From positions 1 through 64,000 of the forward strand of contig JAEVEX010000049.1 of the NCBI GenBank assembly GCA_016842085.1: DNA of 64,000 nucleotides. Reading direction: 5' to 3'. The translations under genes were made by a program, and so were the position numbers. Source of the DNA: Candidatus Thermoflexus tengchongensis (GTDB taxonomy: Bacteria; Chloroflexota; Anaerolineae; Thermoflexales; Thermoflexaceae). Positions within the stretch are counted from its first letter, which is position 1. Each line of letters begins with the position of its first letter. Of the stretch, positions 33,907-60,465 are shown one piece after another. The notes below the pieces were generated by a model. The model did no database searches and was not told where the DNA came from. It saw only the letters and a list, made by a program, of their open reading frames with translations.

Positions 33907-33981
33907 CGGGGCGTGGCGCAGCCAGGTTAGCGCACCACGTTTGGGACGTGGGGGTCGTCGGTTCGAATCCGACCGCCCCGA
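33907..33981 (+). tRNA. tRNA-Pro (TGG)
   Basis: Acceptor arms CGGGGCG and CGCCCCG pair fully. The D arm (GCGC...GCGC) and T arm (GTCGG-TTCGAAT-CCGAC) are regular. The anticodon stem CCACG/CGTGG holds loop TTTGGGA with anticodon TGG at 33942-33944. CCA is not encoded. Confidence 0.95.
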
Positions 33982-33987
33982 CTGAGT

Positions 33988-34060
33988 GCGGGCGTAGCTC
34001 AGAGGGTAGAGCGTCTGCCTTCCAAGCAGAAGGTCGCGGGTTCGAGTCCCGTCGCCCGCT
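33988..34060 (+). tRNA. tRNA-Gly (TCC)
   Basis: Acceptor arms GCGGGCG and CGCCCGC pair. The anticodon stem TCTGC/GCAGA encloses CTTCCAA with TCC at 34021-34023. The T arm GCGGG-TTCGAGT-CCCGT is regular. It lies six bases after tRNA-Pro, so the two are probably one transcript. Confidence 0.95.
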
Positions 34061-34129
34061 CCTTTCCCCGGATCGGTGATGGGGCAGGGAGCGCTGCTGT
34101 GTGCCCCATGGTTCCCCAATCCACGCGAA

Positions 34130-34201
34130 GGGCCCGTAGCTCAACGGCAGAGCAGCCGGCTCATAACCGGTCGGTTGCAGGTTCGAATCCTGCCGGGCCC
34201 A
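34130..34201 (+). tRNA. tRNA with CAT anticodon (Met, or Ile if lysidine-modified)
   Basis: Acceptor arms GGGCCCG and CGGGCCC pair fully. The anticodon loop CTCATAA carries CAT at 34162-34164. The T arm TGCAG-GTTCGAAT-CCTGC is regular. The initiator feature of an unpaired first base is absent. Elongator Met and tRNA-Ile2 cannot be separated by eye. Confidence 0.93.
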
Positions 34202-47974: not shown

Positions 47975-48060
47975 CGGTCACGGCGGGCAAATCCGCGCCA
48001 CGCGTTGGCCTTTGGCGCCGATTGGAAATCGGCCTCCATGGGCGCTTCGCGCCCGGCGTC

Positions 48061-48332
48061 AGCGGGTGCGCCGATTGAAATCGGCCTCGTGAGGCGCTTC
48101 CGCGCCAGGTGCCGGCCTTCGCCGGCATGAAAACCCCTCTTCCGGCCCATTGCGCCGATGGAAATCGGCCTCCATGGGCACTTCGCGCCCGGCGTCGGCG
48201 GGTGCGCCGATTGAAATCGGCCTCGTGAGGCGCTTCCGCGCCAGGTGCCGGCCTTCGCCGGCATGAAAACCCCTCTTCCGGCCCATTGCGCCGATGGAAA
48301 TCGGCCTCCATGGGCACTTCGCGCCCGGCGTC
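48061..48332. repeat. Two tandem copies of a 136-bp unit
   Basis: Copies at 48061-48196 and 48197-48332 are nearly identical, starting (A/G)GCGGGTGCGCCGATTG and ending CGCCCGGCGTC. Each holds four hairpins and the spacer GAAAACCCCTCTTCCGGCCC. Confidence 0.9.
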
Positions 48333-48674
48333 GGCCTCCGCCGATGCAAAAGCCGTTCGGCCGGCGCAGGCCGGCCACTGGCCGAAGGCCTATAAGGTCG
48401 AATTCATTCGACACGCCACCGCGCGGCCACCGGCTTTCCACGCCGATTGGAAATCGGCCTCCATGGGCGCTTCGCGCCCGGCGTCGGCCTCCGCCGATGC
48501 AAAAGCCGTTCGGCCGGCGCAGGCCGGCCACTGGCCGAAGGCCTATAAGGTCGAATTCATTCGACACGCCACCGCGCGGCCACCGGTTTTCCACGCCGAT
48601 GGAAATCGGCCTCCATGGGCGCTTCGCGCCCGGCGTCGGCCTCCGCCGACGCAAAAGCCGTTCGGCCGGCGCAG
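48333..48674. repeat. Two and a part copies of a ~153-bp unit
   Basis: Units begin GGCCTCCGCCGATGCAAAAG at 48333 and 48486 and, with one change (GACGC), at 48638, giving periods of 153 and 152. Each contains GCCGTTCGGC, the GTCGAATTCATTCGAC palindrome and GCCACCGCGCGGCCACCGG. Confidence 0.9.
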
Positions 48675-48819
48675 GCCGGCCACCGGCCGAAGGCCTCTCC
48701 AGGTCGAATTCATTCGACACTCACGCCGGCCACCGGCCGAAGGCCTCTCCAGGTCGAATTCATTCGACACTCACGCCGGCCATTGGCCGAAGGCCTGTGA
48801 GGTCGAAGTCATTCGACCC
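48675..48819. repeat. Three copies of a 50-bp unit
   Basis: Units starting GCCGGCCA at 48675, 48725 and 48775 each contain GGCCGAAGGCC and then GTCGAATTCATTCGAC. The first two are identical and the third has diverged (GTGAGGTCGAAGTCATTCGA). Confidence 0.9.
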
Positions 48820-50587: not shown

Positions 50588-50714
50588 TCGGTTGCAACGG
50601 CGCATCCCCTGGGGGTTGCGGGCTGCCGAAGGCAACCCGCCCGGCTGGCTGGATTTGCCTGAGGTTCGAACATGCGCTAAAGCTGAAGAGGGAGCCCAGG
50701 CACTGGAGGTTTCC

Positions 50715-52376
50715 ATGACCTCAGGCGGAACGGCCCCGGTGATCCGTGCGCCCCGGGGGAAGACGTTGACATGCAAGAACTGGCAGATCGAGGCCGCCTA
50801 TCGCATGATCCAGAACAACCTGGACCCCGATGTGGCGGCTGATCCGGCGAACCTGATCGTTTACGGCGGCCGCGGCAAGGCGGCCCGCAACTGGGAATCC
50901 TTCTACGCGATCCTCGAATCCCTCCGCAACCTGGAGCCCGATGAAACCCTCCTGGTGCAGTCGGGCAAGCCTGTGGCGATCTTCCGCACCCATGAGCTCG
51001 CCCCCCGCGTCCTGATCGCCAACAGCAACCTGGCTCCCCACTGGGCCACCTGGGAGGTCTTCGACGAGCTGGAGCGCAAGGGCCTGATCATGTTCGGCCA
51101 GATGACGGCCGGTGCCTGGATCTACATCGGCACCCAGGGGATCCTCCAGGGAACCTATGAGACGCTGGCCGCCTGCGCCCGAACCCATTTCGGGGGCAGT
51201 CTGAAGGGGAAGTGGGTGCTGACGGCGGGGCTGGGGGAGATGGGCGGCGCGCAGCCCCTGGCGATCACCATGAACGAGGGGGTGGGTCTGATCGTGGAGG
51301 TCGACCCGCGCCGGGCGCGGCGCCGCCTGGAGCACGGGTTCCTGGATGAGATCGTGGAGGATCTGGACGAAGCGCTGCGGCGGGTGGAGGAATACCGGAA
51401 GGCCGGGCAGGCCCGCTCCATCGGGCTGCTGGGCAATGCGGCCGAAGTCTTCCCGGAGCTGGCCCGCCGTGGCATCATCCCGGACGTGGTCACCGATCAA
51501 ACCCCTGCTCACGATCCCCTGATGTATGTCCCCAAAGGCCTCTCCGTCTTTGAGGCGGAAGAGCTCCGGGCGAAGGATCCCCAGGCTTATATCCGACGGG
51601 CGAAGGAGAGCATGGCGATCCATGTGGAGGCCATGCTGGCCTTCCATCGGGCAGGGGCGGTGGTCTTCGATTACGGGAACAATTTGCGCCAGCAGGCTTA
51701 TGAGATGGGCGTGAAAGACGCCTTCGCCTATCCGGGCTTCGTGCAGGCCTACATCCGGCCGCTGTTCTGCGAAGGGAAGGGTCCCTTCCGCTGGGTGGCC
51801 CTCTCGGGGGATGCGGAAGACATCTACCGAACGGACCAGGCGATCCTGGAGCTGTTCCCCGAGGACGAGAGCCTTCGCCGCTGGATCACGATGGCCCAGA
51901 AGCGGGTGCGGTTCCAGGGGCTGCCCGCCCGGATCTGCTGGCTGGGCTATGGGGAACGGGATCGGGCCGGGCTGTATTTCAACGAGCTGGTCCGTCGGGG
52001 CGAGCTGAGCGCCCCCATCGTGATCGGGCGGGATCACCTGGACGCGGGCTCGGTGGCCAGCCCGAACCGGGAGACGGAAGGGATGAAGGACGGCTCCGAC
52101 GCCATCAGCGACTGGCCGATCCTCAACGCCCTGCTCAATGCGGTGGCCGGGGCGACGTGGGTGGCCTTCCACCACGGCGGCGGCGTCGGCATCGGCTACA
52201 GCCAGCATGCCGGGATGGTGGTGGTGGCTGATGGCACGAAGGAAGCCGAATGGCGCCTGGAACGGGTGCTGCGGACGGATCCGGGCCTGGGTGTGGTGCG
52301 CCACGCCGACGCCGGCTACGAGAAAGCGATCGAGGTCGCCCGCCGGCACGGGATCAAGATGCCGATGCTCCGGTGA
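50715..52376 (+). CDS. hutU: Urocanate hydratase
   Basis: The 553-residue NAD-dependent enzyme converts urocanate to imidazolonepropionate, step two of histidine breakdown. Family stretches are [90 protein letters not shown] and [16 protein letters not shown]. The length is almost the same as characterised HutU (about 556). The ATG at 50715 follows GGAGGTTTCC. HutI is at 59143 on the same strand; hutH and hutG are not in the window. Confidence 0.96.
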
Positions 52377-52449: not shown

Positions 52450-53880
52450 TCATGGCGCTTGCCTTCGATAGAGACGCCATCCGGGCCAGGAGGCTTCCAG
52501 CATGAAGCCAGGCGGTGCTCGCAGGCGATAACGAGCTTCCAGGGGGCCGATGGCCCCCTGGGGGGATTCGGCGACCAGCAGCCAGCGCACAAAGCGCTCC
52601 GGGCGACTGACCGCCAGCTGGAAGGTGGGATCCGGGGGCAATACAAAGGGGCATGCGGTCCCGGCGCGGGCGATGAGGCGATAGGCCTGCCGATCATCGG
52701 CCAGGACGCTCCCGCAGGGCAGGCGGGCCAGGCGTGCGGCGATTTCCTCCTCGACGGCATCCGCCGTTGAGGGTTTTTCCGCCCACAGCGCAGCCCACCA
52801 GCGCTCCCGCTCACCATAGCGGGTGGAGAACCCATCCACTCCCAGCTGGAGAAGCGCCAGCACCATGAGCGGGATCCCCCATCGGAGTGGAGTCCGTGCG
52901 GGGATCCCGGAGAGCGCGAAGAGCGCTCCCAGGGCCACGCTCAGCTCTCGGGGGAACACTCCGCCCAGGGACCACACGCTCACCATCAGGAGGAGGGGGA
53001 TCAGATAGGCGGGAAGCCGTCGGGGCTGCAGATGCGCGATGAGAACACCAACGCCGAGGTAAAGCGGGGTGTTCAGCAACCTTTGAACGAGCTCGTGAGC
53101 CATCGCTCCCAGGGTGAGGAAGGCCTCGTCCGGCCGGAAAGCGATCAGCAGGCTGGAGCCCGGATCGTAGAGGAAGGCCAGGGGTTGACCTGTGAAGAGC
53201 CAGGAGAGATAGATCCATGCGCCGACGGTCATCGCGGTAGGGAACGCGAGGACCATCAGGATAGCCAGTGTATGGCGGGGGTCACGGGTGTGAGCGAAGA
53301 GGGGGGCGGCAAGGGCGAAGGTGAGGGCAAACGCTGGCGCGTAGAAGCTGGCATAAAAGGCGAAGCCGATGATCAGAGCAGCGAGAAAGCCGGCATCCGT
53401 CCGCCCATAGCGGGTAAACGTCAGATAAGCCTGCCAGGCCCACAGGAAGAGAACGAGGGCCATGGTCGTTCCGAAGCGCTGGGTGGCCAGAAAGAGGATC
53501 GTGGGCATCCCCATGAAGCTGAGGAGCAGCCCAGCACGGATCCAGGGTGGGAAAGGCAAAGCCTGCAGGCGACGCCCGACGCTCCAGGCCAGCAACCCTC
53601 CGCTCAGACTGGCCAGGATCACAGCAGCCGGCAGGATGGGCCACGGAAGCAACATCAGGACCGGAAGAGGAGGATATGCAAAGCCGATCCACTCCAGCCG
53701 GCCGCGATCCCGAACCAGGAGCGCTTTCTCAATCAGATGGGCGTGCTCATGGCTCATGAATCCACGGGACAGCGAGGCCGCCCCGACGATGAGGAAAGGG
53801 AGGCTGAGCCCGCAGATGGCGATCCCTTCCCAGACGATGTGGCCGAAGGCGGACGCTCGCTTCCAGGTGGAGGGGGGCAT
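52450..53880 (-). CDS. Polytopic membrane protein of the exopolysaccharide operon
   Basis: The 476-residue protein has a first hydrophobic segment (GIAICGLSLPFLIVGAASL), an acidic/His loop (GFMSHEHAHLIEKALLV) and about 9-10 further segments. A soluble C-terminal domain of about 110 residues follows (VEEEIAARLARLPCGSVLADD). The layout resembles GT-C glycosyltransferases (loop acid after helix 1) but the signature is weak. The ATG at 53878-53880 follows AGGAG. It follows the GT2 synthase gene by 36 bases in the same direction, so it likely belongs to that operon as a transferase, transporter or accessory protein. Confidence 0.6.
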   Translation of the reverse strand: MPPSTWKRASAFGHIVWEGIAICGLSLPFLIVGAASLSRGFMSHEHAHLIEKALLVRDRGRLEWIGFAYPPLPVLMLLPWPILPAAVILASLSGGLLAWSVGRRLQALPFPPWIRAGLLLSFMGMPTILFLATQRFGTTMALVLFLWAWQAYLTFTRYGRTDAGFLAALIIGFAFYASFYAPAFALTFALAAPLFAHTRDPRHTLAILMVLAFPTAMTVGAWIYLSWLFTGQPLAFLYDPGSSLLIAFRPDEAFLTLGAMAHELVQRLLNTPLYLGVGVLIAHLQPRRLPAYLIPLLLMVSVWSLGGVFPRELSVALGALFALSGIPARTPLRWGIPLMVLALLQLGVDGFSTRYGERERWWAALWAEKPSTADAVEEEIAARLARLPCGSVLADDRQAYRLIARAGTACPFVLPPDPTFQLAVSRPERFVRWLLVAESPQGAIGPLEARYRLRAPPGFMLEASWPGWRLYRRQAP

Positions 53881-53916
53881 GTTCGTTCTCCTGCGGAGCG
53901 CTTTGTCAGCTGGTGA

Positions 53917-55845
53917 TCAGGCGCTTCCCTCTCCCGGATTCCCATGGACATCTCCCAGCCAGCGGCTGAGGCCGTGGGTGGTCTTCTCCCAGTAGAACGG
54001 CCGGGTGAACAGTTGCCAGAGGGCCTTGTAGGCGGCAATGCTATGGAGGATCCAATAGATCGGATTCAGCAATGCCCATGGGATCAGGTCGTAATACCCT
54101 CGCTTGAACCCGGCCAGCATATTCAGGTAAATCCCAATGGCGTTCCCGATCAGTAAATTGAATAGGCTGATATAAAGAACAGGCGGTGGGAAGAAAGGAT
54201 CCAGCGCGTGAGTGCGGGTGATCACCCACCAGGCGAACATCACCCACAACCATGGGGCGGCTAAAAAGGTGAGGGGCGTCCCCGCCACCAGCAGGAAGAA
54301 GCCCAGGGTCCGGCGGAGGCCAATCCGTCGGACCAGGCGCCAGGGATGGCGCGCGTGGACCAGGGCGGTCTGCATGTATCCCTTGATCCAGCGGGAGCGC
54401 TGGCGGATCCAGTTCCCAACCTGCGTGTTGGCCTCCTCGTAGGTCGTGCTCGGGATCACTCCCACCTCGAATCCCTCCACAATGGCCCGGATGCCCAGGT
54501 CCGCATCTTCCGTGACATTGAAGGGATCCCATCCGCCCAGCTCCCGCAGGCGTTCAGTGGGGAAATGATTGCTCGTCCCCCCCAGGGGAATCGGCATGCC
54601 CAGTCGATACAGGCCCGGGAGCATGTAATCGAACCAGTAAGAATACTCCAGGGTGAACATCCGGGTGAGGAAATTCTCTCGCGCGTTGAAATAGTTCAGC
54701 GCAGCCTGGACGCAAATCAGGCGTGGCCCTCCCTTCCGGAAAGCCAGGATAGCTTTCTTAAGCTGATCCGGATCCGGGCGATCTTCTGCATCATAAATGA
54801 CCACGTAGTCTCCCGAGGCGAAGAAGAGGCCCACGTTGCATGCTTTGGGCTTGGTTTTGGGGATCTGATCCGGGATCAGAATAAAACATACGTTTCCGGG
54901 GGGCCGCGCCGCCTTCGCGGCTTCAAAGGTCTCTCTGTCGTCCTCCTCGATCAGCAACAGGATCTCCAGCTTCTCCGGCGGGTAGTCCAGGCGCTTCAGG
55001 TTGGCGAGCAGGGTGCCGATCACGCTGGCCTCCCGATACACCGGGACCAGGATGGTGTAGCGCGGCAGCTCTTCGTCCTTCAGGGCTGCGACTTCTTCCT
55101 CCAGGATCGGGGTTTCCCGTTCGTGGCGGGCTCCGACTATGGAAACCACGAACTTGAAAAGAACGCTGGCCAGAAAGAAGAGGTTCGCAAGGCCGTTGAG
55201 AAGAATCATGGTGAGGCGCGGAGCCAGGGCCAGTCCCAGCAGGGTGCTCATCAGCACCAGCGCGAAGGCGAAGAACTGGGCGCGGGTGAAAACGGTATGG
55301 GCGGATTCCTCGGGGCGCCGATAATACAGGCCATAGGTGGCTGATGCAAGCACATCGGTTCTGAAAAAACGTAACAGGGTTCGCCGGATATCCCACTCGG
55401 TGGTCGCCCGCACCCGTGCCACCGGCCTTCCGAAACGCCGGGCGGCCTCTTCCAGCAGGGCCGCGTCCGGGCGTCGGGCCGTGGCGATCTCCAGCCCCTC
55501 CGGCGTCTCCCGAAGGGGGAGGATCCAGGATTCCATGATCTCCTCCGGCCGGAATCGGCGGAGCAGCTCCGGATCCGGGGGCTCCTGGAGGAGATCCACG
55601 AAAGGAACCCCCCACAGATCCGCCAGGGTCTGATAAAGGTCATAGCGGCGTACCAGACCCCGGGAGAGCAGGATCTGCCCCAGACGCTCCCGGGTCTGTG
55701 CCTGAATCCGAAGCGCCCAATCCAGATCTTCGGGCCGCAGCAGCCCTCGCGCTACCAGGGCTTCGCCCAGGCGCATCGGCGGATGCGTCTTCCCTTCCTC
55801 GCTTTCGGTTCGAACGGGGCCGGTTGAAGCCGTCAGGGCTTCCAT
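53917..55845 (-). CDS. GT2 processive glycosyltransferase with N-terminal MshEN (c-di-GMP-binding) domain
   Basis: This is a 642-residue protein. Residues 25-48 and 54-77 are two 24-residue MshEN motifs (RLGxxLVxxGLL... and RLGxxLLxxGLV...) with the canonical 5-residue spacer; the final Gln of motif 2 is Leu. The rest of a GspE_N-type domain extends to about 150. Two membrane helices follow, then the GT-A domain: YTILVPVYREASVIG, DAEDRPDPDQL (DxD), TEDADLG (base) and QRSRWIKG (QxxRW). Three or four C-terminal helices complete a BcsA-like channel. No PilZ domain is present. It makes an unknown beta-linked polysaccharide, probably activated by c-di-GMP through MshEN. Confidence 0.88.
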   Translation of the reverse strand: MEALTASTGPVRTESEEGKTHPPMRLGEALVARGLLRPEDLDWALRIQAQTRERLGQILLSRGLVRRYDLYQTLADLWGVPFVDLLQEPPDPELLRRFRPEEIMESWILPLRETPEGLEIATARRPDAALLEEAARRFGRPVARVRATTEWDIRRTLLRFFRTDVLASATYGLYYRRPEESAHTVFTRAQFFAFALVLMSTLLGLALAPRLTMILLNGLANLFFLASVLFKFVVSIVGARHERETPILEEEVAALKDEELPRYTILVPVYREASVIGTLLANLKRLDYPPEKLEILLLIEEDDRETFEAAKAARPPGNVCFILIPDQIPKTKPKACNVGLFFASGDYVVIYDAEDRPDPDQLKKAILAFRKGGPRLICVQAALNYFNARENFLTRMFTLEYSYWFDYMLPGLYRLGMPIPLGGTSNHFPTERLRELGGWDPFNVTEDADLGIRAIVEGFEVGVIPSTTYEEANTQVGNWIRQRSRWIKGYMQTALVHARHPWRLVRRIGLRRTLGFFLLVAGTPLTFLAAPWLWVMFAWWVITRTHALDPFFPPPVLYISLFNLLIGNAIGIYLNMLAGFKRGYYDLIPWALLNPIYWILHSIAAYKALWQLFTRPFYWEKTTHGLSRWLGDVHGNPGEGSA

Positions 55846-55927
55846 AATGGTGCAGACCCTCGCTGCGGTTGTTTCATCCGATCGGAATGTTTCCGCGGGC
55901 AGAGCTTTCTGGATGGCGCCCGAAGAC

Positions 55928-57967
55928 TTAGGAGGCGGGCAGGGCGGGGCCCGGAGGCCGGGTTCGCACCACCCGCGGATAAACCCAGATCAGGAAAGCC
56001 AGCAACGCAAGGAAAGCGGCTCCCAGCGCCCACGGCCACAACCGGGACCACCAGACGGCCGGGCTGGGAGGCAAAGGCTCCACCCGCAGCCCTGTGCCGC
56101 GCACACGGATCTCCACCGGGGACTCCCCGGCGGGCCAGATCCACACGTCTCCGCTTAACCCATACCATCCCAGCTGAGGATCGAAAGCGCTGGCGAGCGC
56201 ATGGAGCTCCGGCGTCTGACCCCATCGGGTCAACAGCAGCAGATCGTGGCCCCCATGTTCAAACGCTTCCAGAACCATGAAAGAGCGATCTGGATCCAGG
56301 CGAAACCGTTCCCGGCCATCCGGATCCAGCAGCCGGAACGGCCGGGGATCCAGAGGCGGGTGAAGATCCTTTATGGCCTCCGGGTCCTTTGTGATCAGGA
56401 CCCGTGGCATTCCAGCAGAAAGAGCCTTCTCCCATGATAGAACCTCCGGCTGGAGCGCTCGGCGGGTGGTCCGCTGGAGAAGCATCACCAGCTGGGCAGC
56501 GGCGTTCAGCGTCGATTCGTCCATGGGGTGCAGACCCACCACGAAAGCAGGCATGAGGACCTGAGGGAAGCGCTCGAACCCGGGAGCCAGCCTCTGGCCC
56601 GCCTGCGATTCAAGATAGGAGGCCCCATTGATGAAAACGGTCAAAGGATGTATGCCAATCCGACAATCTCCGCCCGGAGGCGTGTAATCCACCCGGACGA
56701 TGAGGGTGTTATCCCGCCGGATCAATCCGTCCGGGAGTGCGATCCAGCGATCGAAGGTGCCGCCGCCGATCGGCTCCGCATAGGCCAGCCCCCCATTCAG
56801 AAAGACCAGCAGGCTGGCCCGCCCTCCCTCAGGGACCGGGCTCATCTGCCCGGCCAGGCGGAAGCGTAATCCGCGAACCGGCCCCCCCAGATCGCTCTGC
56901 GAGAAGAAGAAAGCGGTTTCCATGGGCCCAGAGCCCCTCATCTGCACCTGGGAGTATCCCAGCTCGGCAAGGGTGATCCGACGAGGGACTTGCCCTTCCG
57001 GCACTGCCCCTGGTCCTGGAGCGATCTCTGGAAACGGCAGGGCTTCTCCGTAGCTCAGAATGGATTCCACCATCCTGAGGGCAGCGCCGGATGGTGCCTG
57101 GATTTCCAGCATCGGGAAGCCCTCCTCGGGGAAGCGCAGCCCTGCGCGCGATTCGCCCCGTTTGATCTGGACCATGCGGGTCCATGGATCCCAGGGATCC
57201 AGAGGGGGAAGATCCCCATCCAGCCGGATCGACACCGTTAAGGGGCGGCCGGTGGCCCGTCGCGTTCCGAACGCCACCAGCCGCAGTGCGGCGGTGGCCT
57301 CATCATACGTGGGCTCAGGGGGTAGCAGGAGGATCAGCGAACGGAGATCGGGTGGCCAGAAGGCGGCGATGGTGCGGGGAGGCTCGGGTGTTCCCTCCAG
57401 ATGCACGTGCAGGTCCTCCAGCTCCACCCTCTCCGTGAGGGGGAACATGCAGGGGTCTGCATCCCGGGGTGGAATCAGCCGGAAATTCAGGTTCAGACGC
57501 TCATGATCGATCTGCCCTTCGTGGAGCCCCACATGGAGGGGGAGTTCTCCGGGACTCAGGGGAATCCATGTTAAGGTTCGTTCTCCATTGCGGACTTCCA
57601 GGCGTCCGCCCGCCAGACCCGGGCTGCTGCGAAGACGGCCGGTCAGCTCCATGGCTTGCAGCCCCCGTGGGATCGGCACGCTGAGCGATCGCTCTGACAT
57701 AGGGCCATACAGGATCAGGGGATCCGGCTGTCCGAATTCCCGAAGAGGGATCTCCCATGTCCCGGAGGGATGATCTCCCCCGGAATGGAGGAGCCTGTGG
57801 GGATCTGGGCGGATGGAGGTTCCCTGGATGTCGTTATGAGAACGGCCTGTTGCTGGAATGGTTGCTGGAAAGGCCAGCAGAGAGAGGGCCAGAGCCATCG
57901 TGAGCCCGATGGCCCGTGGGATCGGCGGACAGAACGTCCGGCCCATATGCCGTTGCAGCGCTCTCAT
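55928..57967 (-). CDS. BcsB-like cellulose-synthase regulatory subunit
   Basis: The 679-residue protein has an N-terminal signal peptide (IGLTMALALSLLAFPATIPA) and a single C-terminal membrane helix (PWALGAAFLALLAFLIWVYP) with a basic cytoplasmic end. In between are beta-rich modules matching BcsB layout: LAELGYSQVQMRG with a jelly-roll start, LTVFINGASYLES and RDNTLIVRVDYTPPGGDC. BcsB guides the nascent chain and contacts BcsA by its C-terminal anchor. It lies directly before the GT2 synthase gene on the same strand (82 bases). The ATG at 57965-57967 follows GGGGGTCTCC. Confidence 0.78.
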   Translation of the reverse strand: MRALQRHMGRTFCPPIPRAIGLTMALALSLLAFPATIPATGRSHNDIQGTSIRPDPHRLLHSGGDHPSGTWEIPLREFGQPDPLILYGPMSERSLSVPIPRGLQAMELTGRLRSSPGLAGGRLEVRNGERTLTWIPLSPGELPLHVGLHEGQIDHERLNLNFRLIPPRDADPCMFPLTERVELEDLHVHLEGTPEPPRTIAAFWPPDLRSLILLLPPEPTYDEATAALRLVAFGTRRATGRPLTVSIRLDGDLPPLDPWDPWTRMVQIKRGESRAGLRFPEEGFPMLEIQAPSGAALRMVESILSYGEALPFPEIAPGPGAVPEGQVPRRITLAELGYSQVQMRGSGPMETAFFFSQSDLGGPVRGLRFRLAGQMSPVPEGGRASLLVFLNGGLAYAEPIGGGTFDRWIALPDGLIRRDNTLIVRVDYTPPGGDCRIGIHPLTVFINGASYLESQAGQRLAPGFERFPQVLMPAFVVGLHPMDESTLNAAAQLVMLLQRTTRRALQPEVLSWEKALSAGMPRVLITKDPEAIKDLHPPLDPRPFRLLDPDGRERFRLDPDRSFMVLEAFEHGGHDLLLLTRWGQTPELHALASAFDPQLGWYGLSGDVWIWPAGESPVEIRVRGTGLRVEPLPPSPAVWWSRLWPWALGAAFLALLAFLIWVYPRVVRTRPPGPALPAS

Positions 57968-58013
57968 GGAGACCCCCGGTAGATCCTTGTTGAGGTGTTA
58001 CGCGGCTGCCCCT

Positions 58014-58889
58014 TTATTCCTGGATCCCCAGGGTTCCGGACAGAAGGAGGGGGCGGCCTTCCCGTTTGGCCTGGCGTTTGAGGGCCGCGAGATGCTGCAC
58101 CAGGGCCTCCAGATCCACCTCGCGGGCGGGATCTACCACCCCGCCCACAATAGAAACCGAAAGCTCTGGAGCCTCAACGGTTTCTGGAAATCGCTCCAGG
58201 ATATGGCGGGCAACGGGGCTGAGAACATGGGGCCGGGTGAGCAGCACGAAATCGTCGCCGCCGATATGGCCGATGAAATCCCGGGAGGGATCCCCGTGGG
58301 CGGCCATCGCCTCCTGGAGCAGGCGGGCGAACGCCTGGAGCACGCGGTCCCCCGCCCGAAAACCGTAGCGATCATTGAAGGCTTTGAAGGCGTTCAGATC
58401 AATGTATGCGATCCCGAAGGGCTCGCCGTTTTCCAGGCGTCGACGGATCTCCCGTTCGATCTCAGGGTTCCCGGGGAGCCCGGAGAGTGGGTTGACCGCC
58501 CTTTCCCTCTGGGAGCGGCGGAGGTGCATCTCGATCCGGGCCAGGAGCTCGGGAATCGCCACCGGTTTGGTCAGATAATCATCCGCGCCGGCGCGGATGC
58601 CCCGCAGTTTATCCTCCACCCGTCCCAGCGCCGTGAGCATGACGATCGGAACCGTGCGCATATGCCAGAGCTCCCGGATCCGTCGACAGACTTCCACGCC
58701 GTTCAGGTCCGGCAGCATAATATCCAGCAGGATCAGATCCGGTGGATGGTTGCGCACCCACTCCAGAGCGGAGGAGCCATCCTCGACTGCATCCACATGA
58801 TAGCCGGCGTTTTTCAGGACGATCGTGATCAGCTCACGCAGATCTCGATCATCTTCGACCACCAGAATTCGTGCCTGGGAAGCAGACAT
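58014..58889 (-). CDS. Response regulator with GGDEF domain (putative diguanylate cyclase)
   Basis: The 291-residue protein has receiver residues 8-120 with acidic pocket E12/D13/D14, phospho-acceptor D56 in LILLDIMLPDLNG and Lys of YLTKPV. The GGDEF domain then shows VNPLSGLPGNPEIE, FGIAYIDLNAFKAFNDRYGF and the active-site loop GGDDF (HIGGDDFVLL). No RxxD inhibitory site precedes it. It could be an active cyclase. The ATG at 58887-58889 was preferred to a longer frame with no ribosome site. It begins the minus-strand operon with BcsB-like and MshEN-synthase genes. Confidence 0.85.
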   Translation of the reverse strand: MSASQARILVVEDDRDLRELITIVLKNAGYHVDAVEDGSSALEWVRNHPPDLILLDIMLPDLNGVEVCRRIRELWHMRTVPIVMLTALGRVEDKLRGIRAGADDYLTKPVAIPELLARIEMHLRRSQRERAVNPLSGLPGNPEIEREIRRRLENGEPFGIAYIDLNAFKAFNDRYGFRAGDRVLQAFARLLQEAMAAHGDPSRDFIGHIGGDDFVLLTRPHVLSPVARHILERFPETVEAPELSVSIVGGVVDPAREVDLEALVQHLAALKRQAKREGRPLLLSGTLGIQE

Positions 58890-59142
58890 CCAGACCCCCT
58901 GATTTTCATTGGATCGCTTGAGGGTTTGGGGATCGGGGGCCGCCAAACGGCCTCTAATCCTCAAATAATTGCCTCCTCGCTGATTAATACTATAGAACAT
59001 GCTTCCACGGAACAAGGCGTTGTTTATACATCGGTTGCGAACCTCACCCCGTAAAGCCCGCTGGAATTCGCAGCGTGCGCTGGCAAACCTGCGATAGAGG
59101 GGTGGGCGACGGCTCTTTGATCCCTGAAGGGGAGGCCTGGGA

Positions 59143-60465
59143 ATGCAGGTCGATCTTCTGATCCGTCACGCGGCTCAGGTAGTCACACCGCGGGGGCGAG
59201 GGCCGGCGCGGGGGGCGGCCATGGGCCGTCTGGAGCTCATCCCGGATGGCGCCGTGGCGGTCCGGGATGGCCGGATTGTGGCGGTGGGCTCCACGGCGGC
59301 TGTGGAAGCTTCCATCTCCGAGGCTGCGGAGGTCTTCGAAGCCCGCGGTCAAACGGTGATCCCCGGCCTGGTGGATCCCCACACGCATCTGGTCTGGGCC
59401 GGCGATCGGGTTGCGGAATTTGAGATGCGCCTGAAGGGCGCCACTTATCTGGAGATCCTCCAGGCCGGCGGTGGGATCCTCTCCACGGTGCGGGCGACCC
59501 GCGCCGCTTCCATGGAGCAGCTGATCGCCGAGACCCGGGGGCGCCTGGATCGGATGCTGCTCCACGGCACCACCACGGCGGAGGCCAAGACCGGATACGG
59601 CCTGGAATGGGAAACGGAGCGCCGCCTCCTGGATGTCCTTCACCAGCTCAACGGCCTCCATCCGCTGGATCTGGTCCCCACATTTCTGGGCGCCCATGCG
59701 GTTCCCGAGGAATACCGGGCGGATCCGGAGGCCTATGTCGGGCGGTTGATCGAGGAGATGCTGCCTGCCGTGGCAGCCCTCCGTTACCCAACGGACGGCC
59801 CCTGGCATCCCCCGTGGGCGGATGGGCGGGCGGCCTGGTTCTGCGATGTGTTCTGCGAACGGGGGGCCTTCGATCTGGCGCAAACCCGGCGCATTCTGGA
59901 GGCGGCCCGGCGCCTGGGGTTCGGCCTCAAGGTGCATGCGGATGAGTTCGAGCCGGCCCTGGGGGCGACGCCCCTGGCGGTTTCGATGGGGGCCATCAGC
60001 GTGGATCACCTGGTGAGCACGCCGCCGGAGCACCTGGAGATCCTCGCCCGCTCCGAGACCATCGGGGTGGTCCTTCCGGGCACTCCTTTCGGGCTGGGGA
60101 CGGGCCATTATGCCCCCGGGCGGGAGCTGATCGATCGGGGGGGCGCGCTGGCTCTCGCCACGGATCTGAATCCGGGGACTTCGTGGTGCGAGTCGATGCC
60201 GATGATGATGGCCCTGGCGACCCGGTATATAAAGCTCACCCCGGCGGAAGCGCTGACGGCGGCCACCCTGAACGCGGCCTGCGCCATCGGCCTGGGCCAT
60301 GAAATCGGAAGCCTGGAGCCGGGCAAGCAGGCGGACATCGTGCTGGTGGATGCGCCGGATTACCGGCATCTGGCCTATCGCTATGGGATCAACCTGGTTC
60401 GCACGGTGATCAAGCGGGGTCGAGTGGTGGTTCGGGATGGGGCTCTCCAGATCCCTGGGGGGTGA
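59143..60465 (+). CDS. hutI: Imidazolonepropionase
   Basis: The 440-residue amidohydrolase opens 4-imidazolone-5-propionate to formiminoglutamate, step three of histidine breakdown. Metal ligands are in VIPGLVDPHTHLVWAGDR (HxH). TTTAEAKTGYGLEWETE, FLGAHAVPEEYR, VHADEFEPALGA (His) and ALATDLNPGTSWCESMP (Asp) are family motifs. A 30-residue insertion at LRYPTDGPWHPPWADG is unusual. The ATG at 59143 follows GGGGAGGCCTGGGA. It is 6.8 kb from hutU and separated from it by a minus-strand operon. Confidence 0.95.
   Translation: MQVDLLIRHAAQVVTPRGRGPARGAAMGRLELIPDGAVAVRDGRIVAVGSTAAVEASISEAAEVFEARGQTVIPGLVDPHTHLVWAGDRVAEFEMRLKGATYLEILQAGGGILSTVRATRAASMEQLIAETRGRLDRMLLHGTTTAEAKTGYGLEWETERRLLDVLHQLNGLHPLDLVPTFLGAHAVPEEYRADPEAYVGRLIEEMLPAVAALRYPTDGPWHPPWADGRAAWFCDVFCERGAFDLAQTRRILEAARRLGFGLKVHADEFEPALGATPLAVSMGAISVDHLVSTPPEHLEILARSETIGVVLPGTPFGLGTGHYAPGRELIDRGGALALATDLNPGTSWCESMPMMMALATRYIKLTPAEALTAATLNAACAIGLGHEIGSLEPGKQADIVLVDAPDYRHLAYRYGINLVRTVIKRGRVVVRDGALQIPGG

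Follow-up and report, generated by a model that had tools for sequence, protein, structure and literature searches.

We lean, with slightly better than even confidence, toward reading a block of four minus-strand genes in the heat-loving Chloroflexota bacterium Candidatus Thermoflexus tengchongensis as an xag-like (sfz) polysaccharide synthase that is gated by c-di-GMP and supplied by a response-regulator cyclase. The block lies in the stretch of 64,000 nucleotides that we analysed (the window), and its genes encode, in order of reading, a response regulator with a receiver and a GGDEF-family domain (RR; positions 58014..58889), a BcsB-like extracytoplasmic subunit (55928..57967), an XagB-like synthase that joins an N-terminal MshEN domain to a membrane-embedded processive GT2 domain (53917..55845), and an XagC-like polytopic protein, predicted to be a GT-C-fold glycosyltransferase or a GT-C-derived partner (52450..53880). 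An earlier note, made from the sequence, had described an operon coupling a phosphorelay, c-di-GMP synthesis and exopolysaccharide export, and our analysis supports this description in part. The four open reading frames, and the 46, 82 and 36 bases between them, are exactly as the note gave them; the cassette contains no bcsC, bcsZ or pore gene, as the note had it; and candidates for a c-di-GMP maker and for a c-di-GMP receiver share one co-directional cluster, which would probably be co-transcribed. The flanking genes, assigned by Pfam, are both on the plus strand: hutU (urocanase, 50592..52376) is convergent with the block and hutI (imidazolonepropionase, 59143..60465) is divergent. A sequence scan of the locus for a sigma-70-like promoter and for a terminator found nothing above chance, and ahead of the RR gene there was neither a structured leader RNA (z-score of 0.22) nor an Rfam match. 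Elsewhere in the window there are a row of three tRNA genes (33907-34201) and tandem arrays of two to three copies each, whose periods are 136, 153 and 50 bases (48015-48817).

The three genes that follow the RR gene are a known cassette, bcsB-xagB-xagC, also named sfz1-3 or sfb1-3, which was described earlier in stalk-forming iron oxidizers (Kato 2015, PMC4643136; Koeksoy 2021, PMC8250860). Profiles grown from the Thermoflexus proteins retrieved the sfb cluster of Ferriphaselus R-1 (locus L106), published as bcsB-xagB-xagC-xagD (PMC4643136, PMC8250860), in the same gene order. The Ferriphaselus synthase aligned to the Thermoflexus profile with an hhalign E-value of 1e-138 and XagC with 93.7% and an E-value of 1.9e-7 over 424 columns (6e-110 for the iterated profile); for BcsB, the direct hhalign comparison of Ferriphaselus Sfb1 with the Thermoflexus profile gave a weak match (E-value of 0.018), and only the iterated profile linked the two. 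The identity of the three-gene core rests on these alignments. As in the published cassettes, the BcsB-like gene is directly upstream of the synthase gene and an XagC-type gene is directly downstream, and the synthase has an N-terminal T2SSE_N/MshEN domain and a C-terminal GT2 domain with DxD, TED and QxxRW. Exopolysaccharide production by the cassette is predicted. The fourth published gene, xagD/sfz4 (a glycoside hydrolase), is absent from the window locus, where the next gene is the convergent hutU, so we limit the assignment to the three-gene core; a GH113 gene is present in L106. The window cassette therefore differs from the Ferriphaselus/sfz set in the absence of xagD/GH113, in the REC-GGDEF gene upstream, and in its host, which belongs to another phylum and is taken as single-membraned. 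The adhesive exopolysaccharide operon xagABCD of Xanthomonas shares XagB and XagC, according to similarities published in PMC4643136; it has XagA, no BcsB is named in it (PMC3609779), and we liken the two by description only. The raised biofilm of a Xanthomonas rpfG mutant requires xagA and xagB (PMC3609779).

The cassette is widespread. We found the trio in named genomes of Deinococcota, Aquificota, Gemmatimonadota, Desulfobacterota-like bacteria, Bacteroidota, Ignavibacteria, Synergistota, Firmicutes, cyanobacteria and Pseudomonadota. Outside Actinomycetota and Thermomicrobia, whose loci have a synthase without BcsB, and apart from the one Acidobacteriota locus, the synthase gene is directly preceded by the BcsB gene in 33 of 36 resolved loci and followed by the XagC gene in 35 of 40. 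Within Chloroflexota the trio is patchy (the BcsB profile matches 5 of 400 sampled genomes), and its genes stand side by side in all Thermoflexus species whose contig is intact, as well as in G040, a genome of another family. This adjacency, together with that in many other phyla, puts the gene order beyond chance. The presence of the same trio in relatives from Ferriphaselus, Thermus, Aquificota and Gemmatimonadota removes the support for one remark of the earlier note, which had called the missing BcsC consistent with a single-membrane cell: two-membrane bacteria have the trio as well, and the missing gene is no argument for one membrane. It should be noted that Kato et al. assigned the bcsC of Ferriphaselus to a distinct bcs set at another place in the genome (PMC4643136).

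Several cassettes have other neighbors. A REC-HD-GYP gene is just upstream in Aerophobetes, and an RR-HK-RR set is downstream in Primorskyibacter; these pairings suggest that the cassette repeatedly acquires signaling genes. An XagB-like synthase without BcsB, mostly still beside an XagC-like gene, occurs in L040, L044, L073 and the Actinomycetota loci. In an Aquificaceae locus (L047:6199-6981), an extra protein of 260 aa, apparently secreted and perhaps an outer-membrane barrel, is encoded between BcsB and the synthase; a possible outer-membrane barrel is also found beside the cassette in L113, and neither has a Pfam match. Facing the cassette of the G003 lineage is a Wzy_C-like ligase of 1181 aa that carries TPR repeats (L021:3011-6556).

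The synthase matches Pfam MshEN (1.2e-13), GT2 families (down to 7e-27) and the NCBIfam c-di-GMP motif model (54.2 versus a cut-off of 38). Its first 165 residues match Thermus PilF and Vibrio cholerae MshE, its GT2 part matches BcsA chains, and the GT2 motifs DAED, TED and QRSRW are near-invariant across 86 homologues. An identity of 67% had suggested that the synthase was transferred from Thermus, which the synthase tree does not bear out. MshEN receptors are defined by two 24-residue motifs, RLG...LxxxLxxQ, 5 residues apart (PMC5013675). By this definition the putative c-di-GMP-binding double motif occupies residues 25-77 (55615..55773, minus strand): the first motif is perfect, the spacer is 5, and the second motif is complete except for the final Gln, which is Leu77, an ending that falls outside even the relaxed published pattern. 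Mutation of MshEN Arg9, Asp12 or Gln32 changes the affinity about fivefold at most, and mutations of hydrophobic residues reduce it more than tenfold (PMC5013675); in view of these values, c-di-GMP binding by the synthase is likely, judging by the motif, and perhaps weaker than usual. The stalk papers do not name the MshEN domain of the cassette as a c-di-GMP receptor (PMC4643136, PMC8250860).

The BcsB-like subunit was a weak call by sequence and is a firm one by structure. It matches Pfam BcsB at 1.2e-4, exactly at the 21-bit cut-off, and a PDB sequence search with its profile found nothing. The structure model shows a signal-like N-terminal helix, two CBD-FD-like repeats, each made of a domain rich in strands and then one of mixed helices and strands as in the layout of BcsB, and a C-terminal membrane helix; against Escherichia coli BcsB it reached a Foldseek E-value of 9.5e-26 and a VIA Z of 21.1 over 522 residues. 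This BcsB fold, the GT2 motifs and the BcsA chain matches are what one would expect if this Chloroflexota bacterium had an operon for cellulose synthase (BcsA-BcsB), and BcsAB, like the window set, joins a membrane GT2 to a BcsB-fold partner, under a c-di-GMP control that is predicted for the window set. However, the synthase scored 47.0 with the CelA/BcsA equivalog, for which the cut-off is 699.1 (and 36.1 with the NfrB equivalog, versus 1170); PilZ, which BcsA uses, is absent from the synthase and from the genome; and the synthase groups with XagB-like proteins and has a GT-C partner, in a set without bcsC and bcsZ. We know of no bcs operon with a GT-C partner. The PilZ absence, the CelA score and the partner genes make cellulose synthase so improbable that we rejected it.

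The earlier note spoke of exopolysaccharide export and of a polytopic membrane protein; the model of this protein has the fold of a GT-C glycosyltransferase rather than of an exporter. The protein has no Pfam family and no PDB sequence match by profile search. Its AlphaFold model (pLDDT 71; the BcsB-like and XagC-like models were built from 8 and 9 sequences) gave a VIA Z of 17.8 with Pmt4 (323 residues, rmsd of 5.1), 16.4 with ArnT and 15.6 with ALG12, which is above the typical best Z of about 14 that the tool gives for helical models. All of the best 50 VIA entries are GT-C or GT-C-like proteins, and the pair R61-x-E63 ahead of YPP is common outside Actinomycetota. These results argue against a transporter, a flippase or a transferase of another group, GT-C-derived or not, that aids export and is not a glycosyltransferase. 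Such a role would suit the moderate confidence of the model and the first outer loop, in which no acidic residue is kept across all homologues (E63 is present in 35 of 51 non-actinobacterial rows, and other acids nearby are not universal), and we consider it unlikely. The protein is accordingly best described from its model as a predicted GT-C glycosyltransferase or GT-C-derived partner, and since the loop has no universal acid, its catalysis stays a prediction. In the open-licence literature that we found, no GT-C assignment has been made for any XagC/Sfz3 and no function has been assigned to this third protein of the cassette.

The RR matches Pfam Response_reg (2e-32) and GGDEF (1e-17). An in-frame TTG at 59015 would give a longer protein; we rejected this start, since the alignment of most orthologues begins only at about residue 41-44 of the longer form, which places the start at the ATG at 58889. 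The receiver has the phospho-acceptor D56, and no kinase gene is among the genes flanking the block; of the phosphorelay in the earlier description, one receiver domain stands and a kinase beside it does not. Likewise, the GGDEF response regulator of that description has both domains, and in the orthologue alignment its cyclase motif reads GGDDF, which does not fit the signature [GSA]G[DE]E[FY]. There is an H in place of R two residues ahead of the motif, and the RxxD inhibitory site is absent from its expected place. Residue roles in the diguanylate cyclase domain are those of PleD. By these, the RR keeps the metal Asp, the substrate Asn, the guanine-binding Asp and the C-terminal Lys/Arg (IDLNAFKAFND, AGD, AKREGR), which are also conserved in the genus orthologues, and has the Asp that marks makers of c-di-GMP rather than of cGAMP. 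PleD and DgcR, which are REC-GGDEF cyclases, likewise combine a receiver with a GGDEF-family domain; the RR differs from them in its single REC and scores far under their NCBIfam cut-offs. Geobacter GSU1937, reported as the first active enzyme with GGDDF (PMC8835794), shares the motif, and the RR has Asp in place of its cGAMP-type Ser. With this one active precedent found, we call the RR a candidate cyclase only. The trio could be a synthase next to a REC-GGDDF protein that is not an active cyclase, and is either a phosphorylation-controlled partner binding GTP or c-di-GMP or merely adjacent; MshEN would then be constitutive or would read c-di-GMP from another source. We regard this as somewhat unlikely. 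The single precedent, the inactivity cited for Pseudomonas aeruginosa PA3258, a GGDDF-EAL protein that does not raise c-di-GMP (PMC8835794), and the H for R speak for it, and the conserved metal, substrate, guanine-selecting and Lys/Arg residues speak against it.

The c-di-GMP inventory bears on the same choice. Family searches of the window's genome, which is 95% complete, found one MshEN protein, namely the synthase, and two GGDEF proteins; PilZ (searched in this genome only), EAL and HD-GYP proteins were not found, and the EAL and HD-GYP searches thus gave no c-di-GMP phosphodiesterase, which again suits an inactive RR. By contrast with the RR, the first metal Asp is gone from the second GGDEF protein, which reads IGINGLDAFQE where cyclases need D..F..N (IGINGL for IDLNAF). 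It is a REC-GGDDF protein with a degenerate active site (L177:7982-8878, on contig 20 of G000, about 136 kb), and it adjoins a hybrid histidine kinase of 2000 aa with about seven GAF domains. The one-contig genome G004 has one MshEN protein, no EAL or HD-GYP protein, and one further weak partial GGDEF match. By this inventory the window's genome has a single good candidate for the cyclase, the RR, and a single recognised receptor, the synthase. Since there is one MshEN protein, PilZ, EAL and HD-GYP were not found, and one of the two GGDEF proteins is degenerate, the operon may be nearly the whole c-di-GMP circuit of the genome. We suggest, tentatively and with less than even confidence, that the Thermoflexus circuit is among the smallest complete ones known: one GGDDF cyclase and one receptor, the synthase, would share an operon, and the genome would have neither a further recognisable receptor nor a dedicated phosphodiesterase. 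No open-licence paper on c-di-GMP in Thermoflexus was found.

The earlier note had proposed a search of gene neighborhoods in relatives, and all four genes are together in 4 of 7 resolvable Thermoflexus species (G000, G008, G001 and G002); G005 was left out, because a contig end cuts its locus. The outcome that the note had named as refuting, relatives in which the four genes are never found together, did not arise. In G000 and G008 the whole block is between hutU and hutI, and in G001 and G002 it is at another genomic site. In G003, G004 and G006, hutI directly follows hutU, with 38 bases between them, and the RR gene is away from the trio (534 kb in the complete genome G004). There the RR orthologue adjoins genes that we take, by eye, to be rnpA-, yidC- and parAB-like. 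No repeats flanking the block were found at the hutU/hutI split. In the synthase tree, the RR-linked species fall in two of the three clades of the genus, which slightly favours an ancestral RR-trio linkage. The three species with an unlinked RR fit a merely adjacent or inactive protein, and the linkage at two genomic sites argues against it. These results support the RR and the trio as a functional unit, in which linkage is favoured and, given the three species with the RR gene elsewhere, not obligatory.

Under the c-di-GMP-gated reading, which we prefer, a two-component signal would phosphorylate the orphan RR, and its GGDDF domain would then make c-di-GMP locally for the synthase. Binding of c-di-GMP by MshEN would open the GT2 active site, as for Escherichia coli NfrB, and GT2 would polymerise a nucleotide sugar and, like BcsA, thread the polymer through a membrane channel of its own. 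On the outside, the BcsB-like subunit would clamp this channel and guide the chain, and the outward-facing XagC-like GT-C enzyme might either cap the chain or attach to it a sugar taken from a polyprenyl-phosphate donor. We counted against this reading the atypical cyclase motif, the Leu-ended second MshEN motif, the unlinked RR in three of seven species, and the lack of a kinase neighbor, of a promoter by scan, of a conserved XagC acid and of a phosphodiesterase. The NfrB-NfrA-YbcH system of Escherichia coli also joins GT2 to MshEN and is c-di-GMP gated, with the local cyclase DgcJ (PMC8669469). Unlike in the window synthase, MshEN of NfrB is C-terminal; NfrA is an outer-membrane protein, and no BcsB or GT-C partner is reported for that system (PMC8669469).

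Most of the gene set belongs to a known type; what is new is the apparent smallness of the signaling circuit. The bcsB-xagB-xagC cassette is present in many phyla and has been little studied, and the GT-C fold gives its third protein a testable role. Thermoflexus may offer a near-isolated maker-receiver pair, in which the activity of GGDDF and the gating by MshEN could be followed without background.
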